From positions 5,412,268 through 5,476,267 of the forward strand of contig NZ_LT629797.1 of assembly GCF_900106015.1 (NCBI RefSeq): a stretch of DNA of 64,000 bases, given 5' to 3'. A program made the position numbers and the translations under genes. The stretch comes from Pseudomonas sihuiensis (lineage in GTDB: Bacteria; Pseudomonadota; Gammaproteobacteria; Pseudomonadales; Pseudomonadaceae). Below are positions 25,647 through 39,212 of this stretch, one piece after another. The notes beneath the pieces were generated by a model that searched no databases, was not told the DNA's origin, and was given only the letters and a program-made list of their open reading frames with translations. Within the stretch, counting starts at the first letter, position 1, and the number at the start of each line of letters is the position of its first letter.

Positions 25647-26038
25647 TGGTGGAGCCGGGGGGATTTGAACCCCCGTCCGCCAGTTCTCCACTGTCGGTAC
25701 TACATGCTTAGCCGTGTCTATTGAGTTAACCCTCAGCCGCCCGACGGGCAGGGTGCATTGGGCGAGTTGTGTAAGTTTTAGCCACTTCGTCCACAACGTA
25801 CTACGCGGCGATCCTGTTCTGCATGACAATCACTTCAGGTTTACAGGCATCCCCTAGTGATCGCTGGAGCCGAAGCTACCAGAAGGACTAGTCGCGCCGC
25901 TTACGCAGCGAGAGCGTAGCCCTCGTAGTTTTCGTCATTGGCAACTATAGAAAGTTGCAACAGTTGATTTACGACTTCTGTTACCAAGTCGGCATGCACC
26001 TCGAGCTTCGCTACCGGCGTCGAATCCTAATCGGCCCC
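25647..26038 (-). ncRNA. ssrA: Transfer-messenger RNA (tmRNA)
   Basis: The 5' end GGGGCCGATTAGGATTCGA and the 3' end with T-arm GGGTTCAAATCCC and encoded CCA fit tmRNA. The tag reading frame (25904-25942, TAA at 25901-25903) gives ANDENYEGYALAA. The RNA rescues stalled ribosomes with SmpB. Length of about 392 bases is slightly long for the genus. The 3' end is intact and borders an integrase gene, so it served as the attachment target of the island. Confidence 0.97.
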
Positions 26039-29416: not shown

Positions 29417-30442
29417 TCAGCGACGCCGAAGCTCCACCTGCAGGGCGTGTTCATCGGTCTGAGTGCAGATGATGGCTACATTCAGGAAGTGCTGGATTAC
29501 CTGCATGTTGCTGCTCAGATGCTCGCTCATGTGCGTTGTGCTGAAGCTGCCGCCGCCAGCCATGGCCAGTGGCAGCAGCAACTGATCGGCCAGGTGCTCG
29601 GCCACGGCGGCGCCGCTGTGCAGCCATTGCCGCGCTTGACCCACGGCCCGGTCAGCGACCTGCTCGGCGCGCACGCTGCTTTGGCCGACGCTGCTGAACA
29701 CCTCGGTAAGGTGCTCGCAGGCGATTTCCAGCAGCAACACGTTGCCTGGGCCGATCTGCTTGTCCAGCCAGATGCCTTTCAGTGCCTGTTCCGGCCACTT
29801 CAGGCGCTTGCCGACACGCGCCAGTTCGCGCTCGGCCACATGGCCTGGCACGTCCGCCACTATGGCGGTTGCCAGCTGATGGTGAACGGCGCCGGGCGCC
29901 TTCAGGTGCAGCGGGCTTAGCACCGACGGTGCGACCTGCAGGGCGATTGCGCCGCCACCAGCCGGTGCGAAGCCATGGCGCAGCAGTTCGATCTCCACCT
30001 GTGCGCCCATGCGCCGGAGCAGCGGCAGCCAGGCCCGCTCGAGAAACTCGAAGGGTGGCGCCAGCGGGTTGTGCGTACCGCCGCTGATGTGCACCCGGCT
30101 GGGCTGGTCGGCTTGCAGCAGGGCGGGTAGCAGTGTCTGCATCACCAGGCTGCAGCTACCAGCGGTGCCGATGGCGAAGTCATAGTCGCCGCCCTAGATC
30201 GCGCCGGGCGCAAAGCTCAGACTCTGCGAGCCGAGCTGCGCGCCTTCCACGCGGGCCGAGCTGATCTGCGCGGCCGCTGTTACAGCCGTGAGATGCTGAC
30301 GTAGCAGGCCGGGGCGGCTGCGCTTGGCGCGGATGTTGTGAATGCGAAACGGCTTGCCGGTGATCATCGACAGGCTCAGCGCGCTGCGCAGTATCTGGCC
30401 GCCGCCGATGGCGCCGTCCAGCTCGATAAGGTCCTTGTTCAT
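29417..30442 (-). pseudogene. rtcA: RNA 3'-terminal phosphate cyclase gene with one in-frame TAG
   Basis: RtcA converts RNA 3'-phosphate to 2',3'-cyclic phosphate using ATP. The 341-codon frame (E. coli RtcA is 338) starts [20 protein letters not shown] and keeps the family motifs [30 protein letters not shown] and HLADQLLLPLA. Codon 83 is TAG (30194-30196) in the block FAPGAI-stop-GGDYDFAIG, with the frame open on both sides. E. coli has Arg here. The context ATC-TAG-GGC fits C-to-T change of CAG within CCAGG. It is the last gene of the rtc operon. Without suppression the product is an 82-residue fragment. Confidence 0.9.
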
Positions 30443-30514: not shown

Positions 30515-31303
30515 TCAGGCGTAGCGTTTCACTGTCTCGCGCAGGTAGGCGTCGAGCAGGCTGCTGTCCGCGCGGGTACGCGGCAGGCTCGGCACCGGCT
30601 GCTGCAGTTGCGTTTCGATGAACGCATGCAGAGCGGCGCGGCGCGGGCCATAGGCGGACTCGTCGGCGCTGCGCTTGAGAACCAGCAACTCCTCCACCTC
30701 GGCCAGCAGCGCAGAGTCGTCCACCGTCTGCAGCAGGTCGGCGAAGGTCATCGGCGGCCGGCCGCGACCCTGGTCGATCCAGCGCACGGCGAGCAGCGGG
30801 CGCAGTACGTAGAAGTATTTTTTCAAGCGCACCGAGTCGCCCTGCAGGTAGCCGCGAAAGTTCTTCCTGGCCATCGACAGGTAGTGGTTGCGCGCTGCCG
30901 GCGGGCTGTAGAAGTGCTCGGCCAGCTCGCGCAGGCGCGCGGTTGCCTGATCTTCCTGGCGATACACCAGCGGCGAGTCGAGCCACTCCAGCAGCGTCGG
31001 GTTGGACTTGCGCAGCAGGCCGAGGGTCTTGCGCAGTTCCCAGCCGCTGACGTCCAGCTCGTCGTCCAGTGGGCGTTCGATCACGTCACGCGGCGCATCC
31101 ACCTGGACGAACCAGTCCGGTTTTTCCACGTATACGAAGCGCGCGTCGTAATCGCTGTCCGGCGAGGCAAAGCCCCAGGCGCGGCTGCCCGATTCGCAGG
31201 CATAGAGCACTTTGACGTTGCGCTCGCGCTCTAGCCGTTCGAGTTCGACCAACACCCGGGCGCGCATGGCGTCGCTGAGCGGGTGGCGTTGTTGCATGTT
31301 CAT
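30515..31303 (-). CDS. COG3541-type predicted nucleotidyltransferase
   Basis: About 262 residues from the ATG at 31303, which follows AAGGATAG; the ATG at 31396 would overlap the upstream gene. The pol-beta-type nucleotidyltransferase signature ACESGSRAWGFASPDSDYD gives the GS and two metal-binding Asp residues. Such enzymes recur in RNA-repair operons with RtcB and may add nucleotides to tRNA or other RNA ends; the substrate is unproven. It sits between the amber-interrupted unknown gene and rtcA, all on one strand. Confidence 0.85.
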   Translation of the reverse strand: MNMQQRHPLSDAMRARVLVELERLERERNVKVLYACESGSRAWGFASPDSDYDARFVYVEKPDWFVQVDAPRDVIERPLDDELDVSGWELRKTLGLLRKSNPTLLEWLDSPLVYRQEDQATARLRELAEHFYSPPAARNHYLSMARKNFRGYLQGDSVRLKKYFYVLRPLLAVRWIDQGRGRPPMTFADLLQTVDDSALLAEVEELLVLKRSADESAYGPRRAALHAFIETQLQQPVPSLPRTRADSSLLDAYLRETVKRYA

Positions 31304-31317
31304 TTCTCTATCCTTGT

Positions 31318-31896
31318 TCAGTCTGTCGCGCTGGCGGCCAGCGCCGACAATGTCCGGCGTCGCGGGTTGTATAGGGTGAGGCACCAAATGCCCCACAATT
31401 CCTTGCCGTCGTCAAAGTAGCTGCGCCAGGTGCTGCGCTGCGGCTCTGTATCTGCATTGCCGACCCAATCGAGCACCTGCATGCCTTCTTCTGGATACAG
31501 CCGCAGCATTTGCAGCCATTCGCGAAAGTCCGCCACGTGCAACGGAGTGCCGTAGGGCGGGTCGCGGAAATTGCGGCACAGCAGGCCGTCCTCACTGGCC
31601 AGCTCATGTAGCTCTATAAGGTTGAAAGCCGTCGGGCGTGCTTGCGCAAAATCGGGTGTCAGGTCAGGCCAGCGTTGTTTAGCAAAGCGCGAGTCCTGTG
31701 CAATCAGCTCAAGTCGGCCAAGGCGAGCGAGCTCCTCGATGAGCTCGAACAGTATCTACAGCACCTGCCGATGCTCCGCTTCGCCGGGTGTGGCGGTCGG
31801 ATCGAGCGTGGACACCACGAAGTCGAACACGCAGCCCGCCTCTTCCAGGCGGGTGCGCAGTTCATCGAGTCGCTGGCTTTGCATCGGTTGCAGCAT
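31318..31896 (-). pseudogene. Unknown rtc-operon gene with one in-frame TAG
   Basis: Reading from the ATG at 31896 (Shine-Dalgarno GAGGTG) gives MLQPMQSQRLDELRTRLEEA, then codon 47 is TAG (31756-31758), after which the same frame continues without fault through LFELIEELARLGRLELIAQD and RNFRDPPYGTPLHVADFREW to a stop at 31318. The full frame is 192 residues. The family is not recognised; the second half looks like a compact globular domain rich in Trp and aromatic residues. The CTG-TAG-ATA context could arise from CAG by one transition. Spacing to its neighbours (14 and about 48 bases) places it in the operon. Confidence 0.75.
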
Positions 31897-31944: not shown

Positions 31945-33297
31945 TCACGCCAGGCGTGTCACGCAATCTGGCGGCAGGGCACCGTTGTCCTGCAGCTCGG
32001 CAACCTGGGCAAGCAACTTACGGCGCTCGGCTGGCGCTGTGGTCGGGTCGACCATCAGGTATTGCTGCTGGCACCAGTTGGCGATCCAGGCCAGCCAGTA
32101 GTCGCGCTGCTGCACTTCGCTATCCAGGCGACGCAGCAGGTAGGCCAGCTGTTGCCAGCGCGGCCGCAGCGCCATCAGTGCGGCGCGGCGGTGGTCCGGT
32201 AGATGCTGCCAATCACGATCCAGGCGCCTGTCGAGTTCCGCTTCCAGTGCATCCCAGGGTTGGCGGCCCAGACATTCGCAGGCTTTGGCGAAGACCTTGT
32301 CGGCTGGATCATCCTGCATCGCCAACTGCTCGCTCAGGTGCTCGTCGCTTAGGCTCACTAACGCCGCTAGGCGCACGCTGGCCATGGGCGAACGTAGCGC
32401 CGCAGCACGCCAGCACTCATCCAGGCTGACCTCCAGTTCGCTGGCCAGGCCTAGTACGCCCAGCCATTCGCGTTTGGACTTGGGCAGGGCTGCGTCCAGT
32501 CGCTTTGCGAGCACTTCGCCGGCATCGAGTTGCCAGCGTGGCGCCGCCCAGCGGGCCAGGTTGCGGACCGCCGGCGAGGCGTCCAGCAGAGCATCACGCA
32601 GCATCTCGCGTGGCTCGTCGAGCCGGCTCAGCAGCGCATGCATGGCCTTGACCCGCACGCTGGCACCGGGTGTAGCCAGTGCCAATTGCAGCAGCGGCAC
32701 TGCCTGTTCCGCAGGCAGGCTCTGGCAGGCTGAAACCGCCATCTGGCGTACCGTCATCTCGCGGTGTGCCAGTGCCTTGCCGAGCAGGCTGACGGGCTCG
32801 TCGCTTGCCTCCAGCAGCAGGTCGAACAGAAACCGAGCGCTTTTGCCGTGTTGAACGAGGAACGCTGCCTGCACTGCATCGCGTACTTCGGCACCCTGCA
32901 ACACCGTGCGTGCTGCCGCCAGTGTCTCTCTGTGGTCGGCACGCTGGCGTTCTGCAAGCGCCATCAGCGGTTGCAGGGCATGTAGCAACGCTGGCGTATG
33001 CTCGGGTACGAGATAGCGCTGCACGCCCGCATTGGCCAACTGGCGTACCTGCGGCACCCAGTCGTTGACCCGTTCGAGCAGGGCGGCCAGGGCTTCTGGT
33101 GAAGGCAACTCGCTCAGTTTACGCACCGCCACCTCGCGCACGAAACCGTTGTGGTGACTGCTCAGCGTGAGCCAGTCGCCTTCGCCCTTGCAGTCGGCTA
33201 GGACCTCCAATGCCTCGTGGTGACGATAGCTTTCCCAATAGTTGTCGGGCGCTGGGCGACTATTTAGCCGCTGCAGCCAGTCTTTCAGGTGCTTCAT
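31945..33297 (-). CDS. HEAT-repeat protein of the RNA-repair operon
   Basis: About 450 residues from MKHLKDWLQRLNSRPAPDNY (ATG at 33297, just after the rtcB stop and behind AAAGGATAGAG). The sequence is a string of paired helices of HEAT type, e.g. SPEALAALLERVNDWVPQVR and ASVRVKAMHALLSRLDEPRE. HEAT solenoids bind proteins or nucleic acids; here it may scaffold RtcB, Rsr or the RNA substrates. The longer frame from 33435 would overlap rtcB heavily and is not used. No enzymatic motif is seen. Confidence 0.85.
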   Translation of the reverse strand: MKHLKDWLQRLNSRPAPDNYWESYRHHEALEVLADCKGEGDWLTLSSHHNGFVREVAVRKLSELPSPEALAALLERVNDWVPQVRQLANAGVQRYLVPEHTPALLHALQPLMALAERQRADHRETLAAARTVLQGAEVRDAVQAAFLVQHGKSARFLFDLLLEASDEPVSLLGKALAHREMTVRQMAVSACQSLPAEQAVPLLQLALATPGASVRVKAMHALLSRLDEPREMLRDALLDASPAVRNLARWAAPRWQLDAGEVLAKRLDAALPKSKREWLGVLGLASELEVSLDECWRAAALRSPMASVRLAALVSLSDEHLSEQLAMQDDPADKVFAKACECLGRQPWDALEAELDRRLDRDWQHLPDHRRAALMALRPRWQQLAYLLRRLDSEVQQRDYWLAWIANWCQQQYLMVDPTTAPAERRKLLAQVAELQDNGALPPDCVTRLA

Positions 33298-33302
33298 AGT
33301 CT

Positions 33303-34535
33303 CTATCCTTTCACGCACACCACCTGACGCAGGGTGTGCACCACTTCCACCAACTCGCGCTGGGCGTCCATTACCTGATCGATGTCCTTGTAGGCCATCG
33401 GTATTTCGTCGATCACGTCGGCGTCCTTGCGGCATTCCACATGAGCCGTGGCGCGGATCTGATCTTCGATGGTGAAGACCTTCTTCGCCTTGGTTCGGCT
33501 CATGGTGCGCCCGGCGCCGTGGCTGCAGGAGCAGAACGCCTCCTCGTTACCCAGGCCGCGCACGATGTAGCTCTTGGCGCCCATGGAGCCGGGGATGATG
33601 CCCAGTTCGCCCTTCTTCGCTGACACCGCGCCTTTACGGGTTACCAGCACCTCTTCACCGAAGTGACGTTCCTTCTGCACGTAGTTGTGGTGGCAGTTCA
33701 CTGCCTCCAGGGCCACCTCGAACGGTTTGACGATCACGCCGCGTGCCGCCGCGATCACCGCATGCATCATCAGCGCGCGGTTCTGCTTGGCGAAGTCCTG
33801 CGCCCAGCCCACAGCTTCCACATAGTCATCGAAGTGCTGGCTGCCTTCCTCGAAGTAGGCCAGGTCACGATCCGGCAGGTTGGCGATGTGCTGGCGCATA
33901 TCGGCCTGGGCCAGTTCGATGAACAGGTTGCCGATGGCGTTACCCACACCGCGCGAACCGCTGTGCAGCATGAACCAGACGCGGCCTGCTTCATCCAGGC
34001 AGACTTCGATGAAATGGTTGCCGGTACCCAGGGTTCCCAGGTGCTTACGATTGTTGGTTTTCTCCAAACGCGGGTACTTGTCGGTGATCGCCTTGAAGCG
34101 CTCGCTCAGCGCCGACCAGGCGTGGTCGGCCATCTCCGGCACGTTTTCCCAGGCTCCCCGATCACGACCGGCGCGCGTGTTGCTGCGCCCGTGCGGCACG
34201 GCTTTCTCGATGGCGGCGCGCAGCCCGGCCAGGTTATCCGGGAGGTCGTGCGCCATCAGCGAGGTGCGCGCGGCGATCATGCCGCAACCGATATCCACCC
34301 CGACCGCAGCCGGGATGATCGCGCCGACCGTGGGGATCACGCTGCCGATGGTCGAGCCCTTACCCAGGTGCACGTCCGGCATCACGGCCAGGTGCTTGAA
34401 GATGAAGGGCATCTTCGCGGTGTTCATCAACTGCTGCTTGGCGTCTTCCTCCACCGGAACGCCTTGCGTCCACAGTTTGATTGGCTTGCCGTTTGCGACT
34501 TCCAGCAGGTTGTAAGTTTTGCTCTGCATCATCAT
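33303..34535 (-). CDS. rtcB: RtcB RNA ligase
   Basis: A 410-residue Mn/GTP-dependent ligase that joins 2',3'-cyclic phosphate or 3'-phosphate ends to 5'-OH ends. Visible signatures are DVHLGKGSTIG, VDIGCGMIAAR (metal-binding Cys), HSGSRGVGN, CHHNYVQKE, GSMGAKSYIVRG and the catalytic-His region SCSHGAGRTMSR. Three ATGs stand in tandem at the start. The gene directly follows the Y-RNA-like array and precedes the HEAT gene, so ligase and tRNA-mimic RNAs are probably on one transcript. Confidence 0.97.
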   Translation of the reverse strand: MMMQSKTYNLLEVANGKPIKLWTQGVPVEEDAKQQLMNTAKMPFIFKHLAVMPDVHLGKGSTIGSVIPTVGAIIPAAVGVDIGCGMIAARTSLMAHDLPDNLAGLRAAIEKAVPHGRSNTRAGRDRGAWENVPEMADHAWSALSERFKAITDKYPRLEKTNNRKHLGTLGTGNHFIEVCLDEAGRVWFMLHSGSRGVGNAIGNLFIELAQADMRQHIANLPDRDLAYFEEGSQHFDDYVEAVGWAQDFAKQNRALMMHAVIAAARGVIVKPFEVALEAVNCHHNYVQKERHFGEEVLVTRKGAVSAKKGELGIIPGSMGAKSYIVRGLGNEEAFCSCSHGAGRTMSRTKAKKVFTIEDQIRATAHVECRKDADVIDEIPMAYKDIDQVMDAQRELVEVVHTLRQVVCVKG

Positions 34536-34577
34536 TCACTCGTAATTCGGGCTGGCTGGGCCAGCGTGCTTGCAGTG

Positions 34578-34692
34578 CGGCGACAATCGTTGGTGAAACA
34601 TGCGCGTCGCTCTATCCTGTTGAGCTACCCGTTGCCGGGGCGGGATTCGAACCCGCAACCTTCACGTCCTGTAGTTCCACCGGCATTCGCCG
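34578..34692 (-). ncRNA. Y-RNA-like unit E with permuted tRNA-like module
   Basis: Lower stem CGGCGA / TCGCCG; internal loop with ATGCC on the 5' side; upper stem GGTGGAAC paired with GTTTCACC. The enclosed module is a T-arm (GCGGG-TTCGAAT-CCCGC), a capped acceptor-like stem CCCG-GCAA-CGGG, then a D-arm (TAGCTCAACAGGATAGAGC). The T-arm before D-arm order and the GNRA cap show a circularly permuted tRNA lacking an anticodon arm, as in bacterial Y RNAs. It is the unit nearest rtcB. Confidence 0.8.
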
Positions 34693-34724
34693 GGTCAATA
34701 AAAATGGTGGATGCGGGCCTCCGT

Positions 34725-34830
34725 GCAGCGACGAGGTGATGGGCACATTTGCTCTACCGACTGAGCTACAGCCTTGCGGCTGACGGGGCTCGAACCCGCG
34801 ACACAATGTAGTACCCAAGGCATTCGCTGC
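34725..34830 (-). ncRNA. Y-RNA-like unit D with permuted tRNA-like module
   Basis: Lower stem GCAGCGA / TCGCTGC; internal loop begins ATGCC; upper stem GGG..ACAT pairs with ATGTGCCC with a bulge. Module: T-arm GCGGG-TTCGAGC-CCCGT, acceptor-like stem CAGCC-GCAA-GGCTG, D-arm TAGCTCAGTCGGTAGAGC. All paired arms differ in sequence from the neighbouring units while pairing is kept, which supports a real structured RNA. Confidence 0.8.
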
Positions 34831-34840
34831 CTGAAAAAGA

Positions 34841-34968
34841 TGCGACGACAACGAGTGGTGAAACTCGCGCTCTCCCATTGAGCTACGGCCCCCCAGTGAT
34901 GGAGCCGACGGGATTCGAACCCGCAACCTCGATCTTAAAAGGATGTAGTTCCACCGGCATTCGTCGCA
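34841..34968 (-). ncRNA. Y-RNA-like unit C with permuted tRNA-like module
   Basis: Lower stem TGCGACGA / TCGTCGCA; internal loop ATGCC; upper stem GGTGGAACT / AGTTTCACC with one bulged G. Module: T-arm GCGGG-TTCGAAT-CCCGT, 7-bp acceptor-like stem CGGCTCC / GGGGCCG closed by an 8-base loop, and D-arm TAGCTCAATGGGAGAGC. The acceptor stem has full tRNA length. A run of five T residues follows three bases after the unit and could cause partial termination or processing. Confidence 0.8.
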
Positions 34969-34984
34969 AAACCGTGAATCAGGT

Positions 34985-35072
34985 GGCACGACAAGATAAG
35001 TGACTGTTCCGTGTTGCCACGGGCCGGTATCGAAACCGGCATAACCGATGTACAGCCACTGGCATTCGTGCC
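34985..35072 (-). ncRNA. Y-RNA-like unit B lacking the D-arm
   Basis: Lower stem GGCACGA / TCGTGCC; internal loop ATGCC; upper stem AGTGGCTGT / ACAGTCACT. Inside are only a T-arm (GCCGG-TTTCGAT-ACCGGC) and a capped stem CCGTG-GCAA-CACGG; no D-arm follows. This is either a degraded or a minimal version of the tRNA mimic. Confidence 0.75.
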
Positions 35073-35079
35073 TTCGCTC

Positions 35080-35137
35080 GTAGTCGACAAGTTCGTGATG
35101 AGACGTCTTGGATGTAGTCCCATCAGCATTCGAATAC
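35080..35137 (-). ncRNA. Y-RNA-like unit A, stem only
   Basis: Lower stem GTATTCGA / TCGACTAC with one mismatch; internal loop ATGC; upper stem TGATGGGAC / GTCTCATCA (9 pairs including one G-U). The loop is 12 bases with no tRNA-like module. It keeps the conserved CGAATGC and ACTACATCC of the other units and would be a Ro-binding stem alone. Confidence 0.65.
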
Positions 35138-35156
35138 GCTTGAATCGTTGATCTGT

Positions 35157-35182
35157 GCGCCCGGCCCCAGTCGGCCGGGCGC
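35157..35182 (-). terminator. Strong hairpin between rsr and the Y-RNA-like array
   Basis: Stem of 10 pairs GCGCCCGGCC / GGCCGGGCGC with a 6-base loop, 4 bases after the rsr stop. No T-run follows, so it is more likely a processing or mRNA-stability element separating rsr mRNA from the small RNAs than a full terminator. Confidence 0.55.
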
Positions 35183-35186
35183 GTTC

Positions 35187-36737
35187 TCATATCTCCATCT
35201 GCTCGATGGCGTCGACCCAGTGGCCGGCGCCGAAGGTACCGCTGGCGAACTGCGCCACCACGTCGAACACCGCGTCGCTGAAGCCGCCGACATTCAGGAT
35301 ATCCGCACGATCCGGCGCCTGGGTGGTGCCATGGGGTTGCAGGTCGATGCAGATCAGCCGCGCTTGCGGGTTGAACTGCTTGATTCGCTCCCACTGCCGC
35401 AGCGTCTCGGTGGCGCCATGGCGGCGGGCGTCGATCCAGGATTCGTTGTCGGAAACCAGAATCAGCGTATCCACTTTCGCCTTGGCATCGGCCAACTGCT
35501 TCAGCGGGGCGGAGCAACTGGTGCCGCCGCCGCAGATCGCCGCCAGCCTCGAAGCGTTGCTCATCACGCTGTCACGCGGGTTGAGCGTCATCTTCACCAC
35601 TTTGTTCTCGAACGGCAGCAACTGGGCCTGCGGCTGCTTGCGCAGGATCGCTGCGGCCACCAGCGCCGCCACGTCGATGCAGCGCACCGCAGTGGTCGCG
35701 CCCTGGCGGTAGCCGGTCACCGGGCTCGCCATCGAGCCGGATACGTCCGGGCATACCACCACCTGACCGCTCAGCGCCGGTACATTGCTCAGCGACAGCT
35801 CCAGAGCATCCTGCAGCGCCTCGCGCACCGTCGTTGGCACGCCGTCGCCGGTCATGCGGTAGGCCGCCAGCAACTGGTACGGGTAGACCCGCGCCTTGCC
35901 GATTGCCTCGCCATCGGCCAGACGCCGCGCCGCCATTTCGGCACAGCCCTCGACCGCGAATGCGCCATGGCGCACCAGCGTATTGAGGTTCATGCGCAGC
36001 GCCTGCCAACCCATGCGTCCGGCCAGTTCGGCCCATTGCGCCGCGCTCAGCGTCTCGTTGCCGAGCAGTTGGAACGGCACGTCCGGCAACTCGCTGCTCG
36101 CGCCGCTGCGAAACGCCAGCAGGGCGTGGGTCAACGGCGGCAGGGCAGCAGCATCGGCCGGCTTGCCGATCAACCAGGCGAAGAAGGCTTCACGCCAGGC
36201 CTCGCTCGGCTTGGGGTGAACCATCTTCACCACGTCGGCCAGCGACGGCTGGTTGCCGACTGCGGCCTGCAGCAGTTGGCGTTCGCTGGCGGTGTTCAGC
36301 CAGTTCTGCACCAGACGCTTGGGCTGCGAACCGAGCGACTTGCGTCCGGTCACGCAGCTACGCAGGATCTGCACGAAGGTGCGCAGCATCTTGCCGTTAT
36401 CCACTACCTGCTCGAACAAGGCCGGCACCAGGCTCGAGCGTTGTGCGGCCAGGGCTGCCAGCAGCAGGGCCGGCATGTCCTTCATGTGGCCCTTCTTGCG
36501 GGCATAGAGCGCGGCTTTGGCCACATAGCGGGCGTCCAGCTCGCCGACCAGCTTGAGCACTTCGTCCAACTGGGTTTGCGCATCGGCATAGACGGTCTGG
36601 TTCAGGCAACCGGTGACCGCCAGCTGGGCCAGCTTGTGCTTGGGCTTGTAGGCATAAGCCGGCGCCTGCTGTTTGTTCAGCGTGTCGCTGGCCGGCAGTT
36701 GGGCTTGGCGGGTGTTGAACAGGTTGAAGTTGGCCAT
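35187..36737 (-). CDS. rsr: Rsr, bacterial Ro60 (TROVE-domain) RNA-binding protein
   Basis: A 516-residue Ro60 orthologue: a TROVE HEAT-like ring (residues about 20-330; e.g. VAKAALYARKKGHMKDMPAL, GMGW-like GRMGWQALRMNLNTL) and a C-terminal von Willebrand A domain with MIDAS motif CPDVSGSM and LILVSDNESW. Ro proteins bind misfolded RNA ends in the ring and Y RNAs on the outer surface. It is the first gene behind the sigma54-type promoter and precedes five Y-RNA-like genes and rtcB, the arrangement known from Salmonella rsr-yrl-rtcBA. Confidence 0.96.
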   Translation of the reverse strand: MANFNLFNTRQAQLPASDTLNKQQAPAYAYKPKHKLAQLAVTGCLNQTVYADAQTQLDEVLKLVGELDARYVAKAALYARKKGHMKDMPALLLAALAAQRSSLVPALFEQVVDNGKMLRTFVQILRSCVTGRKSLGSQPKRLVQNWLNTASERQLLQAAVGNQPSLADVVKMVHPKPSEAWREAFFAWLIGKPADAAALPPLTHALLAFRSGASSELPDVPFQLLGNETLSAAQWAELAGRMGWQALRMNLNTLVRHGAFAVEGCAEMAARRLADGEAIGKARVYPYQLLAAYRMTGDGVPTTVREALQDALELSLSNVPALSGQVVVCPDVSGSMASPVTGYRQGATTAVRCIDVAALVAAAILRKQPQAQLLPFENKVVKMTLNPRDSVMSNASRLAAICGGGTSCSAPLKQLADAKAKVDTLILVSDNESWIDARRHGATETLRQWERIKQFNPQARLICIDLQPHGTTQAPDRADILNVGGFSDAVFDVVAQFASGTFGAGHWVDAIEQMEI

Positions 36738-36777
36738 CTTGGCGTCTCGCAGTGTTGTCCGTTGTTGCCAGGACTAT

Positions 36778-36793
36778 TGCAGCGGCTGTGCCA
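36778..36793 (-). promoter_or_regulatory. Sigma54-type promoter of the rsr-rtcBA operon
   Basis: TGGCACAGCCGCTGCA on the minus strand matches the -24/-12 consensus (TGGCAC at -24, TGCA at -12) with exact spacing, missing only one T at the -12 element. It starts transcription about 30 bases before the rsr ATG. The divergent RtcR is a sigma54 activator. The AT-rich 36800-36960 stretch is the likely activator-binding zone. Confidence 0.8.
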
Positions 36794-36967
36794 GGTTTAT
36801 CTTTCGAGTTCTTATTTTTATTTAAAGTATTGATTTAAAAGTATTTTATTTTTGTTCGAGATGATTTTTGCTGGATCTTGAGGTGGTCGGCTTCAGCAGC
36901 ATGATATCTATATAGATCGTAATTTATCTTTTTGGATAAGATGCTGGAGGGTCTACGAGGATTGAAC

Positions 36968-38572
36968 ATGATTCGCAAGCGTACCGTCGCCATCGGCTTT
37001 ATCGGCACCACCCTGGATCGGGTCGGCAAGGGTGCCAATCGCTGGAACAAATGGCGGCCGAGTATCGGCCTGTGTCAGCAGCCGGATCTGCTGATCGACC
37101 GTCTGGAGCTGATCCACGGCTCCGACGCACGTGATATCGGCCTTGCCGAGCGCATTCGCGCGGACATCGAGCAGATCTCCCCGGAAACCGAGGTGCGCCT
37201 GCAACAAATGCAGTTGCGCAACCCTTGGGATTTCGAGGAGGTCTATGGCGCGCTGCACGACTTCACCAATGCCTATGTCTTCGATACCGAACACGAGGAC
37301 TATCTCGTGCATATCACTACCGGTACGCACGTCGCGCAGATCTGCTGGTTCCTGCTGACCGAGGCGCGCTATCTACCGGCAAGGCTGATACAAACTTCAC
37401 CCACACGCAGGCGCGCCGAGGTCGATCCGGTCACGGGCACCTACACGCTGATCGACCTGGATCTGTCGCGCTATGACCGCATCGCCTCGCGCTTTCAGAA
37501 CACACGCCTGGAGGGGCTGGCCTTCCTCAAGTCGGGCATCGCCACGCGCAATGCCGCCTTCAACCGCTCCATCGAGCAGATCGAGCGAGTCGCCGTGCGC
37601 TCCTCGGCGCCCATGCTGCTGATCGGCCCGACCGGCGCGGGTAAGTCGTTTCTGGCGCGGCGGGTGTACGAGCTCAAGCGCAGCCGCCATCTGGTCGATG
37701 GTCGCTTCGTCGAGGTCAACTGCGCCACCTTGCGCGGCGATGGCGCGATGTCGGCGCTGTTCGGCCATATCAAGGGCGCTTTCACTGGCGCGCAGAACGC
37801 TCGTGATGGCCTGCTGCGCGCTGCCGATGGTGGCATGTTGTTCCTCGACGAGATTGGTGAGCTGGGCCTGGACGAGCAGGCCATGCTGCTCAAGGCTGTC
37901 GAGGAGAAACGCTTCTTTCCCATGGGCTCAGACAAGGAGGTGAGCAGCGACTTCCTGCTGATCGCCGGCACCCACCGCGACTTGCGCGCGCGGGTGGCTG
38001 AAGGTCTGTTTCGCGAAGACCTTTACGCGCGGATCAACCTTTGGACCTTCGATTTGCCAGGCCTTGCCGGGCGCCGCGAGGATATCGAGCCGAACATCGA
38101 TTTCGAGCTGCAGCGCCATGCCCGCGAGCAGGGACGGCTGGTGCGTTTCAATCTGGAGGCGCGGCGGCGCTATCTGGCCTTCGCCAGCTCCAGCGAGGCC
38201 GCTTGGCAGGGCAACTTCCGTGAGCTGTCGGCCTCGATCACGCGCATGGCGACCCTGGCCGACAGCGGGCGTATCGATGAAGAGCAGGTGCGTGAGGAGA
38301 TCGAGCGCCTGCGCAGAGCCTGGGGCCAGGTGGAGCAGGACGATGGGCTGAAGGCCTGGCTGGGCGAGGCGGCGGACGAGCTGGATCTGTTCGACCGCCT
38401 GCAGTTACGGGCGGTGCTCGAGGTCTGTCGTCAGGCCGATAGTTTGTCCGATGCCGGGCGCCGGCTGTACCAGGTGTCGCGCCTGAGCAAGGCGCAGCCC
38501 AACGATGCCGACCGGCTGCGCAAGTACCTGGCGCGTTTCGGCCTGGAGTGGAAGGATCTGCTCGGTAACTGA
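36968..38572 (+). CDS. rtcR: RtcR, CARF-domain sigma54 activator
   Basis: About 534 residues from the ATG at 36968 (MIRKRTVAIGFIGTTLDRVG), preferred over 36932. An N-terminal CARF-type domain (residues 1-180; conserved YVFDTEHEDYLVHITTGTH) senses a ligand derived from RNA damage. A central AAA domain has Walker A GPTGAGKS, the sigma54-contacting GAFTGA loop and Walker B MLFLDEIGEL; the C-terminal part is the DNA-binding region. It should activate the divergent rsr-Y RNA-rtcB-rtcA operon through sigma54. Confidence 0.96.
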   Translation: MIRKRTVAIGFIGTTLDRVGKGANRWNKWRPSIGLCQQPDLLIDRLELIHGSDARDIGLAERIRADIEQISPETEVRLQQMQLRNPWDFEEVYGALHDFTNAYVFDTEHEDYLVHITTGTHVAQICWFLLTEARYLPARLIQTSPTRRRAEVDPVTGTYTLIDLDLSRYDRIASRFQNTRLEGLAFLKSGIATRNAAFNRSIEQIERVAVRSSAPMLLIGPTGAGKSFLARRVYELKRSRHLVDGRFVEVNCATLRGDGAMSALFGHIKGAFTGAQNARDGLLRAADGGMLFLDEIGELGLDEQAMLLKAVEEKRFFPMGSDKEVSSDFLLIAGTHRDLRARVAEGLFREDLYARINLWTFDLPGLAGRREDIEPNIDFELQRHAREQGRLVRFNLEARRRYLAFASSSEAAWQGNFRELSASITRMATLADSGRIDEEQVREEIERLRRAWGQVEQDDGLKAWLGEAADELDLFDRLQLRAVLEVCRQADSLSDAGRRLYQVSRLSKAQPNDADRLRKYLARFGLEWKDLLGN

Positions 38573-38630
38573 TGGCTGTGCTTTGCTCCGGTATGCTGTG
38601 CGCCTGATTCACTCCATGCAAGGAATGCCC

Positions 38631-39212
38631 ATGCGCCACCCTATGACCGTCGAGCAGTTGCAGCAGGCCTGCACAGCTGGGCATCGTTTCGACTATCTGT
38701 ATTTCTGGGGGCACAGCCGTGCGGCGGGGACGCCGGTTGGCAAGAGTTGTCTGAGTCAGTGGTATCCCTCGGCCTTTACCCTCGGAGGCATCCGCTACGC
38801 AACGGCCGAGCACTACATGATGGCTGGCAAGGCACGTCTGTTCGATGATGCCGATGCGCTGCAGCGCATCCTGGCAGCGCGCATACCGAATGAGGTCAAG
38901 GCGATAGGCCGTGAAATCCGTGGTTTCGACGAGGCGCTTTGGCGTGAAAACCGTCAAGCCATCGTCTTCGAGGGCAATCTCGGCAAGTTCTCCCAAGACC
39001 CGGAGCTGGCACGTTACCTGATGGGAACCGCACCTCGTTTGCTGGTGGAGGCCAGCCCGGTCGATCCCGTCTGGGGTATCGGCCTGGCAGAGGGGGATGC
39101 CAATGCTCATTCGCCCGCGACCTGGCGTGGCCTTAACCTGCTGGGCTTCGCCCTGATGCAGGTGCGTGAATGCTTGTTGAACGAGCCCGGACGCTTGCAC
39201 AGCGAGGCTTGA
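38631..39212 (+). CDS. NADAR-family N-glycosidase (YbiA-like)
   Basis: About 193 residues from MRHPMTVEQL (ATG at 38631 behind AAGGA). The NADAR/DUF1768 pattern is clear: LYFWGHSRA, SQWYPSAFTLGGIRYATAEH, MMAGKARLF and GNLGKFSQDPELARYLM. NADAR proteins hydrolyse N-glycosidic bonds of riboflavin intermediates or remove ADP-ribose from nucleic acids. It lies 58 bases after rtcR on the same strand and could be co-transcribed, putting an ADP-ribose/nucleotide-damage enzyme next to the RNA-repair switch. Confidence 0.88.
   Translation: MRHPMTVEQLQQACTAGHRFDYLYFWGHSRAAGTPVGKSCLSQWYPSAFTLGGIRYATAEHYMMAGKARLFDDADALQRILAARIPNEVKAIGREIRGFDEALWRENRQAIVFEGNLGKFSQDPELARYLMGTAPRLLVEASPVDPVWGIGLAEGDANAHSPATWRGLNLLGFALMQVRECLLNEPGRLHSEA

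Follow-up and report, generated by a model that had tools for sequence, protein, structure and literature searches.

A probable cluster of five bacterial Y RNA genes with stepwise tRNA mimicry between rsr and rtcB of Pseudomonas sihuiensis

The window, the whole 64,000-nucleotide stretch of Pseudomonas sihuiensis DNA that was analysed, contains an RNA-repair gene set in which a divergent rtcR and rsr are followed by an array of small units and then by rtcB, a HEAT-repeat protein gene, the RlaP gene and rtcA. The array lies on the minus strand, in the gap bounded by the rsr stop (35187) and the rtcB start (34535), and consists of five units at 34578-35137. An earlier note, made from the sequence alone, had placed five minus-strand units bearing the heptamer CGAATGC between rsr and rtcB, and we confirmed this layout. 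From the regulator to the cyclase, the features are:

36932..38572, plus strand: rtcR, RNA-repair transcriptional activator (NF038308, 849.6 bits, cut-off 650)
36778..36794, minus strand: sigma-54 type promoter motif CTGGCAC-N6-TGCA, 40 bases 5' of the rsr start codon
35187..36737, minus strand: rsr, coding for a 516-aa Ro60 ortholog (Pfam vWA_Ro60, 76.9 bits, cut-off 27.7; TROVE, 29.6 bits, cut-off 23)
35080..35137, minus strand: U1, bare Y hairpin of 58 nt, absent from the Rfam report; 31 distinct orthologues covary
34985..35072, minus strand: U2, Y hairpin with a T-arm-like hairpin and a GCAA-capped 5-bp stub; Rfam YrlA at 27.0 bits, below cut-off
34842..34967, minus strand: U3, YrlA-type, with T arm, D arm and closed 7-bp acceptor; YrlA 64.9 bits (cut-off 69); covariation
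34886..34907, minus strand: acceptor hairpin of U3, CGGCTCC, an 8-nt loop starting with A, and GGGGCCG; G3:U70 and A73 in tRNA numbering
34725..34830, minus strand: U4, YrlA, T and D arms present, stub CAGCC/GGCTG capped by GCAA; 69.3 bits (cut-off 69); covariation
34578..34692, minus strand: U5, YrlA, T and D arms present, stub CCCG/CGGG capped by GCAA; Rfam 88.1 bits; covariation
33303..34535, minus strand: rtcB, RNA ligase (Pfam RtcB, 441 bits)
31945..33435, minus strand: HEAT-repeat protein, 3' of rtcB (Pfam HEAT_2, 36.1 bits)
30515..31396, minus strand: RlaP, RNA-repair polymerase-beta family (Pfam RlaP, 318.7 bits)
29417..30442, minus strand: rtcA, RNA cyclase, in two open pieces (ORF pieces)

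The best solved relative of the rsr product is 2nvo, itself an Rsr, and the product scored 91 bits against the NCBIfam Rsr model, below the cut-off of 900. It is 100% identical to Rsr of P. chengduensis DSM 26382, a strain in which the sequences of all five units are also identical to those of the window. The HEAT-repeat ORF as listed overlaps rtcB, and its true start is probably internal. The Salmonella Typhimurium rsr-yrlBA-rtcBA operon likewise combines RtcR, Rsr, Y RNAs, RtcB, RtcA and sigma-54 control (PMC7790460). Two Y RNAs are named for that operon, whereas the window has five units, and the HEAT-repeat protein and RlaP between rtcB and rtcA set the window apart from it.

The motif 5' of rsr matches a looser form of the sigma-54 pattern, the strict form TGGCACN{4,6}TTGC having no match in the window. 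Of the 79 loci with sufficient sequence 5' of rsr (out of the 80 named loci introduced below), 69 have a counterpart within 160 nt of rsr; its distance from the rsr start is mostly 52-60 nt, and the background predicts 0.07 matches per 160 nt. Consensus scans of 34300-37000 found neither internal sigma-70-like promoters (0.7 expected by chance) nor terminators (3.3 expected by chance), and the array therefore probably rides on the operon message. A GC-rich hairpin at 35157-35182 (minus strand) follows immediately 3' of the rsr stop codon; since it lacks a T run, it may protect the end of the rsr message. By eye, several relatives have a hairpin of different sequence at this position.

All five units share a stem of the Ro60/Rsr type with an internal loop, as is typical of bacterial Y RNAs. 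The lower helix ends in CGA/TCG (YGA/TCR in relatives) and each unit carries the anchor CGAATGC, with the conserved strand AATGC lying between the two helices. It is faced by TTG, or TCG in U4, just before the closing strand, and the upper helix adjoins CTACA, or GTACA in U2. A rule-based scan of both strands of the window scored the five units at 15-16, and the best of the 15 other matches reached 14. What stands on this common stem differs stepwise among the units in its tRNA mimicry, and this gradation is the less ordinary feature of the array. U1 consists of the lower stem (with one mismatch), CGAATGC, the upper stem, CTACA and TTGTCG, and has no effector module; the class is a bare hairpin in 41 Pseudomonas units. 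In U2, a T-arm-like hairpin is followed directly by a GNRA-capped stub without a D arm, an arrangement that resembles a tRNA minihelix; some species lack the stub or the entire module. U3, U4 and U5 are topped by a circularly permuted tRNA-like domain composed of T arm, acceptor hairpin and D arm. The U3 of most species combines T and D arms with an acceptor of 7 or 8 bp; one of 18 rows (L050) has only three contiguous acceptor pairs. U4 and U5 carry short stubs, namely CAGCC GCAA GGCTG, CCCG GCAA CGGG or others. By a script check, as stubs stand outside the pair tables, the stub fails to close in one of 26 U4 rows (L041) and in two of 21 U5 rows (L050, L054), and four further U5 rows close it only beyond a basal mismatch.

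Departures from this layout were seen among relatives. At the U1 position, Pseudomonas sp. URMO17WK12:I2 (L041:5602-5722) has a 115-nt unit with extra hairpins, one of them T-arm-like. P. ovata (L056) and a P. viridiflava isolate (L104) have the U1-U2 pair duplicated in tandem, and their U2 copies measure 61-62 nt, with the module absent.

Bacterial Y RNAs are an already known kind of RNA, and two of the units are members of an Rfam family: against a YrlA (RF02553) cut-off of 69 bits, U5 (88.1 bits) and U4 (69.3 bits) pass. U3 (64.9 bits) and U2 (27.0 bits) miss it and were reported at a loose threshold, at which Rfam still gave no YrlA report for U1. The permuted order of T arm, acceptor hairpin and D arm that characterises YrlA is present in U3, U4 and U5, and U1 and U2 lack this domain. 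Stem, anchor, both arms, acceptor hairpin and the position beside rsr and rtcB are thus common to YrlA and U3-U5. The window differs from YrlA in having three diverged tandem copies, and U3 in having a 7-bp acceptor with an 8-nt loop, compared to 6 bp and a 3-nt loop in the Rfam YrlA consensus. U2 is also weakly similar to a second bacterial Y RNA family, YrlB (RF02565; 15.8 bits, E 4.6), far below the cut-off of 97 bits, and its T-arm-like hairpin and its stub under a GNRA cap set it apart from YrlB. In the whole genome, the YrlA cut-off was passed nowhere outside the array; seven weaker places were listed there at E <=10, six of them on tRNA clusters. Across the genus, YrlA matches over the cut-off were found in 14 of 298 genomes. 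Among the literature matches listed, judged by titles and the starts of abstracts, none concerned multi-unit Pseudomonas Y RNA arrays, and primary papers may describe them. Likewise, none of the listed matches covered a tandem Y RNA set with graded modules, a prior description of which is possible, for example in Wang 2018, Chen 2014 or Sim and Wolin 2018.

We next turned to related loci, where conservation had been named in the earlier note as a check. With the own genome counted, 27 of the 298 genomes examined in the genus encode Rsr (E <=1e-30), as do four of 369 genomes drawn from the class. The comparison comprised 80 named rsr loci (42 from Pseudomonas, 38 from other genera) and four more, one being the window's own. 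As 95 loci matched a query-protein pattern and the named set consists of the best 80, distant relatives are under-sampled. The units sit beside rsr in the same place in these relatives, within the rsr-rtcB gaps of Pseudomonas and of other genera, and they are specific to these gaps. Across 59.5 kb of rsr-rtcB gaps the scanner counted 265 units; in 683 kb of flanks (taken from loci whose gap was in stored orientation) it counted three, in about 297 kb of shuffled gaps one, and on the antisense strand of the rsr-rtcB gaps none. Overlapping matches were merged, and matches scoring <14 or lacking T.G before the closing strand were dropped; as this filter drops real units (e.g. U1 of L040, score 13), the counts are lower bounds. 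With this reading, the 84 loci hold no unit in two cases, one in 10, two in 11, three in 31, four in 13, five in 16 and eight in one. The 42 Pseudomonas loci hold at least two units in three cases, three in 18, four in eight and five in 13; P. protegens and P. chlororaphis are among the species with arrays.

A covariance model built from U1 alone, R1, gave 75 plus-strand matches at E <=0.1 in 34 of the 38 non-Pseudomonas loci, along with two minus-strand matches (E 0.03 and 0.046), and no match in the other four loci. In the window, it found U1 and U5 and missed U2, U3 and U4. The union of scanner and R1 over the 38 other-genus loci gives no unit in one (L084, negative by both methods), one in one, two in 12, three in nine, four in seven, five in five, six in two and eight in one. 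The suggestion that five tandem units would be an unusually expanded set did not survive these counts: three to five units are normal in Pseudomonas, other genera range from 0 to 8, and the rsr-rtcB gap of Andreprevotia lacus (L113:5500-8100) holds at least eight Y RNA units. In the same gap, two further candidates were seen by eye, one of which the scanner scored at 13, and some D-arm regions (GTGGCGGAATTGGTAAACGC) look tRNA-Leu-like by eye.

The earlier note had observed that the arms differ between units while pairing is kept, a comparison of paralogous units. The stronger test compares orthologues, and it was positive in all five classes. Pairs were counted over distinct Pseudomonas sequences aligned per class, using 18 of 19 U3, 21 of 21 U5, 26 of 31 U4, 31 of 41 U1 and 40 of 44 U2 rows; one more unit (L041, first position) was excluded as 'other'. 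For U3, 99.8% of cells are paired and both sides change at 5 of 34 pairs, three of these in the acceptor. U5 is paired in 99.1% of cells, with both-side changes at 3 of 27 pairs, all in the anticodon-like stem. The corresponding values are 93.3% and 6 of 26 pairs for U4, 90.3% and 9 of 16 for U1, and 92.9% and 7 of 26 for U2. In every class, the observed percentage paired or covariation score (for U1, 0.408 vs 0.132 in shuffles) was reached by none of 500 shuffles, which take no account of relatedness, and when the partner was displaced by 1 to 3 columns, the share of paired cells was 27.7 to 57.8%. The plain count of both-side changes discriminates less: it was reached by 3 (U3), 5 (U2), 21 (U1), 28 (U4) and 353 (U5) of the 500 shuffles, and is thus not raised for U5 and modestly raised for U4 and U1. 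The count of further standard pair types was raised in no class, with 242 (U3), 137 (U5), 248 (U4), 50 (U1) and 500 (U2) shuffles reaching it. Pairing is incomplete at the first upper-helix position of U1 (unpaired in 25 of 31 rows), in the anticodon-like stem of U4 (pairs formed in 67% and 46% of cells) and in the T-arm-like hairpin of U2 (81% of cells).

Given the Rfam matches, the covariation among orthologues, the gap-specific units and the matches of the U1 model, we consider it very likely that the units at 34578-35137 are five clustered Y RNA genes of the bacterial kind, lying within an RtcR-type RNA-repair operon, and that this accounts best for the array as a whole. The Y-RNA-like identity proposed from the sequence is thereby borne out by Rfam, by the neighbouring proteins and by covariation in relatives.

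The alternative with most to recommend it would restrict the Y RNAs to U3, U4 and U5 and treat U1 and U2 as cis structures of the operon message, e.g. mRNA stabilisers or processing sites separating rsr from the Y RNAs. It would fit the missing Rfam report for U1, the 27 bits of U2 and the lack of a full tRNA-like domain in either. However, both units keep the anchor, the internal-loop strands and the stem geometry of U3-U5 and covary; the U1-U2 pair is doubled in P. viridiflava and P. ovata; and R1, built from U1 alone, finds U5 of the window as well as Y hairpins in other genera. We therefore regard this alternative as unlikely and treat all five units as Y RNA genes.

Within this set, the acceptor of U3 deserves separate consideration. 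Over both strands, all seven pairs including G3:U70, it is identical to the acceptor of the host tmRNA, an ordinary copy of which Rfam places at 25647-26038. In the window's group, it reads CGGCTCC/GGGGCCG, then A, and the U3 acceptor of P. khazarica (L042), CGACTCC/GGGGTCG, shows a both-side change. Among the 42 distinct tRNAs of the genome, a GGGG start is confined to tRNA-Ala genes, and G3:U70 is the alanine identity pair. U3 also shares with permuted tmRNA (RF04321) the order of T arm, acceptor 3' strand, loop and acceptor 5' strand, scoring 29.9 bits against a cut-off of 47. It is unlike permuted tmRNA in having no CCA, in standing on a Y stem and in matching over the T arm and acceptor only (model 36-95 of 213). 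One could thus imagine that U3 is opened at the acceptor like a two-piece tmRNA and undergoes tRNA-type chemistry, i.e. an RNase P cut, CCA addition and alanylation, possibly with resealing by RtcB, and the acceptor identity with G3:U70 and A73, together with the tmRNA match, would speak for it. Of the 18 distinct U3 rows, 10 retain U70:G3, and these all come from the window's group with P. otitidis and P. alcaligenes, whereas the other eight carry G-C there. Moreover, the acceptor loops are closed and short, U3, U4 and U5 all lack a CCA after the acceptor, and a script found NCCA at the expected place in one of 40 units with acceptors of at least 6 bp (7-bp register; 108 of 252 units had a parsable acceptor, nine of those without any contiguous pair). 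We hold such processing of U3 to be highly improbable.

An aminoacylatable permuted tRNA as a general property of the units was rejected, because the U3 acceptor has no CCA and the acceptor loops, besides being closed, vary. Mimicry of a specific isotype was rejected as well: when the D and T arms of U3-U5 were compared with the 42 distinct tRNAs, no isotype fitted both arms of any class. The best D-arm match, often tied, varies among Gly, Arg, Trp and Leu for U3, among Thr, Trp, Phe and Val for U4, and among Trp, Arg, Val, Thr and Ala for U5. T arms are more uniform: the best match, again often tied, is Gly(tcc) for 20 of the 25 U4 rows parsed and for 15 of 21 U5 rows, and Asp for 10 of 18 U3 rows. 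The arm parser put the T arm in the wrong place in three U3 rows (L053, L054, L055) and left one U4 row (L041) unparsed.

Rfam also calls a tRNA at 34775-34892 (minus strand; 32.8 bits, cut-off 29). This call is a chimera that joins the 3' D-arm half of U3 to the 5' T-arm half of U4 across a long insert, illustrating how tandem permuted modules can mislead tRNA annotation; ARAGORN found no normal-order tRNA gene in the window. That the array is decaying tRNA-derived sequence, i.e. a set of tRNA pseudogenes, is extremely improbable: T and D arms do closely resemble those of real tRNAs (up to 100% across an arm) and Rfam made the call just mentioned, but that call is chimeric, ARAGORN detects no tRNA, pairing is conserved across species and no single isotype fits both arms of a unit.

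Reading the array as Y RNA genes, we can outline how it might work. The transcript would start at the RtcR-activated sigma-54 promoter 5' of rsr and would then be cut into separate Y RNAs. The Rsr ring would hold each RNA by the common stem, and the tRNA-like top may tether PNPase or another tRNA-recognising protein, as for YrlA. In YrlA, the basal stem is the tether to Rsr and the tRNA-like domain binds PNPase, and TruB and DusA introduce pseudouridine and dihydrouridine (PMC8394870). The crystallised Y RNA 6CU1 is described as a circular permutation of tRNA in PMC11472068. Rsr binding, PNPase tethering and RtcR control are thus carried over from the literature on these known systems and would apply here by analogy. 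The cutting into separate RNAs and a division of labour, in which all five share Rsr and differ in effector, are what we infer beyond that; bare U1, for instance, would bind Rsr without recruiting a PNPase-type partner. A doubtful, more far-reaching idea is that the locus encodes an adapter set, with one Rsr ring and five stepwise tRNA mimics coupling it to several tRNA-handling partners simultaneously, and with U3, whose acceptor copies that of tmRNA and tRNA-Ala including G3:U70, as the one that could engage tRNA enzymes at its acceptor.

The stubs of U4 and U5 have a bearing on this adapter-set idea. They differ from each other in all 15 loci holding both units, as would be predicted if each had to remain distinct from the other, and the types CAGCC and CCCG each occur in both U4 and U5 across species. 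When U5 stubs were permuted among loci, zero identical U4/U5 pairs arose in 1.1% of 20000 trials. Since the loci are related and a swap between types may have happened few times, the difference is a hint that the two units stay distinguishable. More generally, the array raises the question of why an RNA-repair operon answering broken tRNAs encodes tRNA-mimicking RNAs, for which PMC7790460 mentions, as possible roles, taking part in tRNA decay and inhibiting a tRNA nuclease competitively. The graded paralogues, with no module, T arm and stub, T and D arms and short stub, or T and D arms and full acceptor, provide a ready-made test of the parts of the mimic, in Pseudomonas species open to culture and manipulation.

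Some observations concern the protein genes of the operon. In the window, codon 82 of rtcA is followed by an in-frame stop, beyond which the remainder of the protein continues in the same frame, and the interruption may be a pseudogene or a sequence error; in one relative (L172), rtcA is uninterrupted and encodes 341 aa. In another Pseudomonas genome with a Y RNA array (L014; G108:C1:2335605-2337153), rsr was matched in two pieces, each with one internal stop codon. Beside rtcR, at 38505-39212 on the plus strand, the window carries a gene for a NADAR/RibX-like N-glycosidase (TIGR02464, 159.3 bits, cut-off 73.7).
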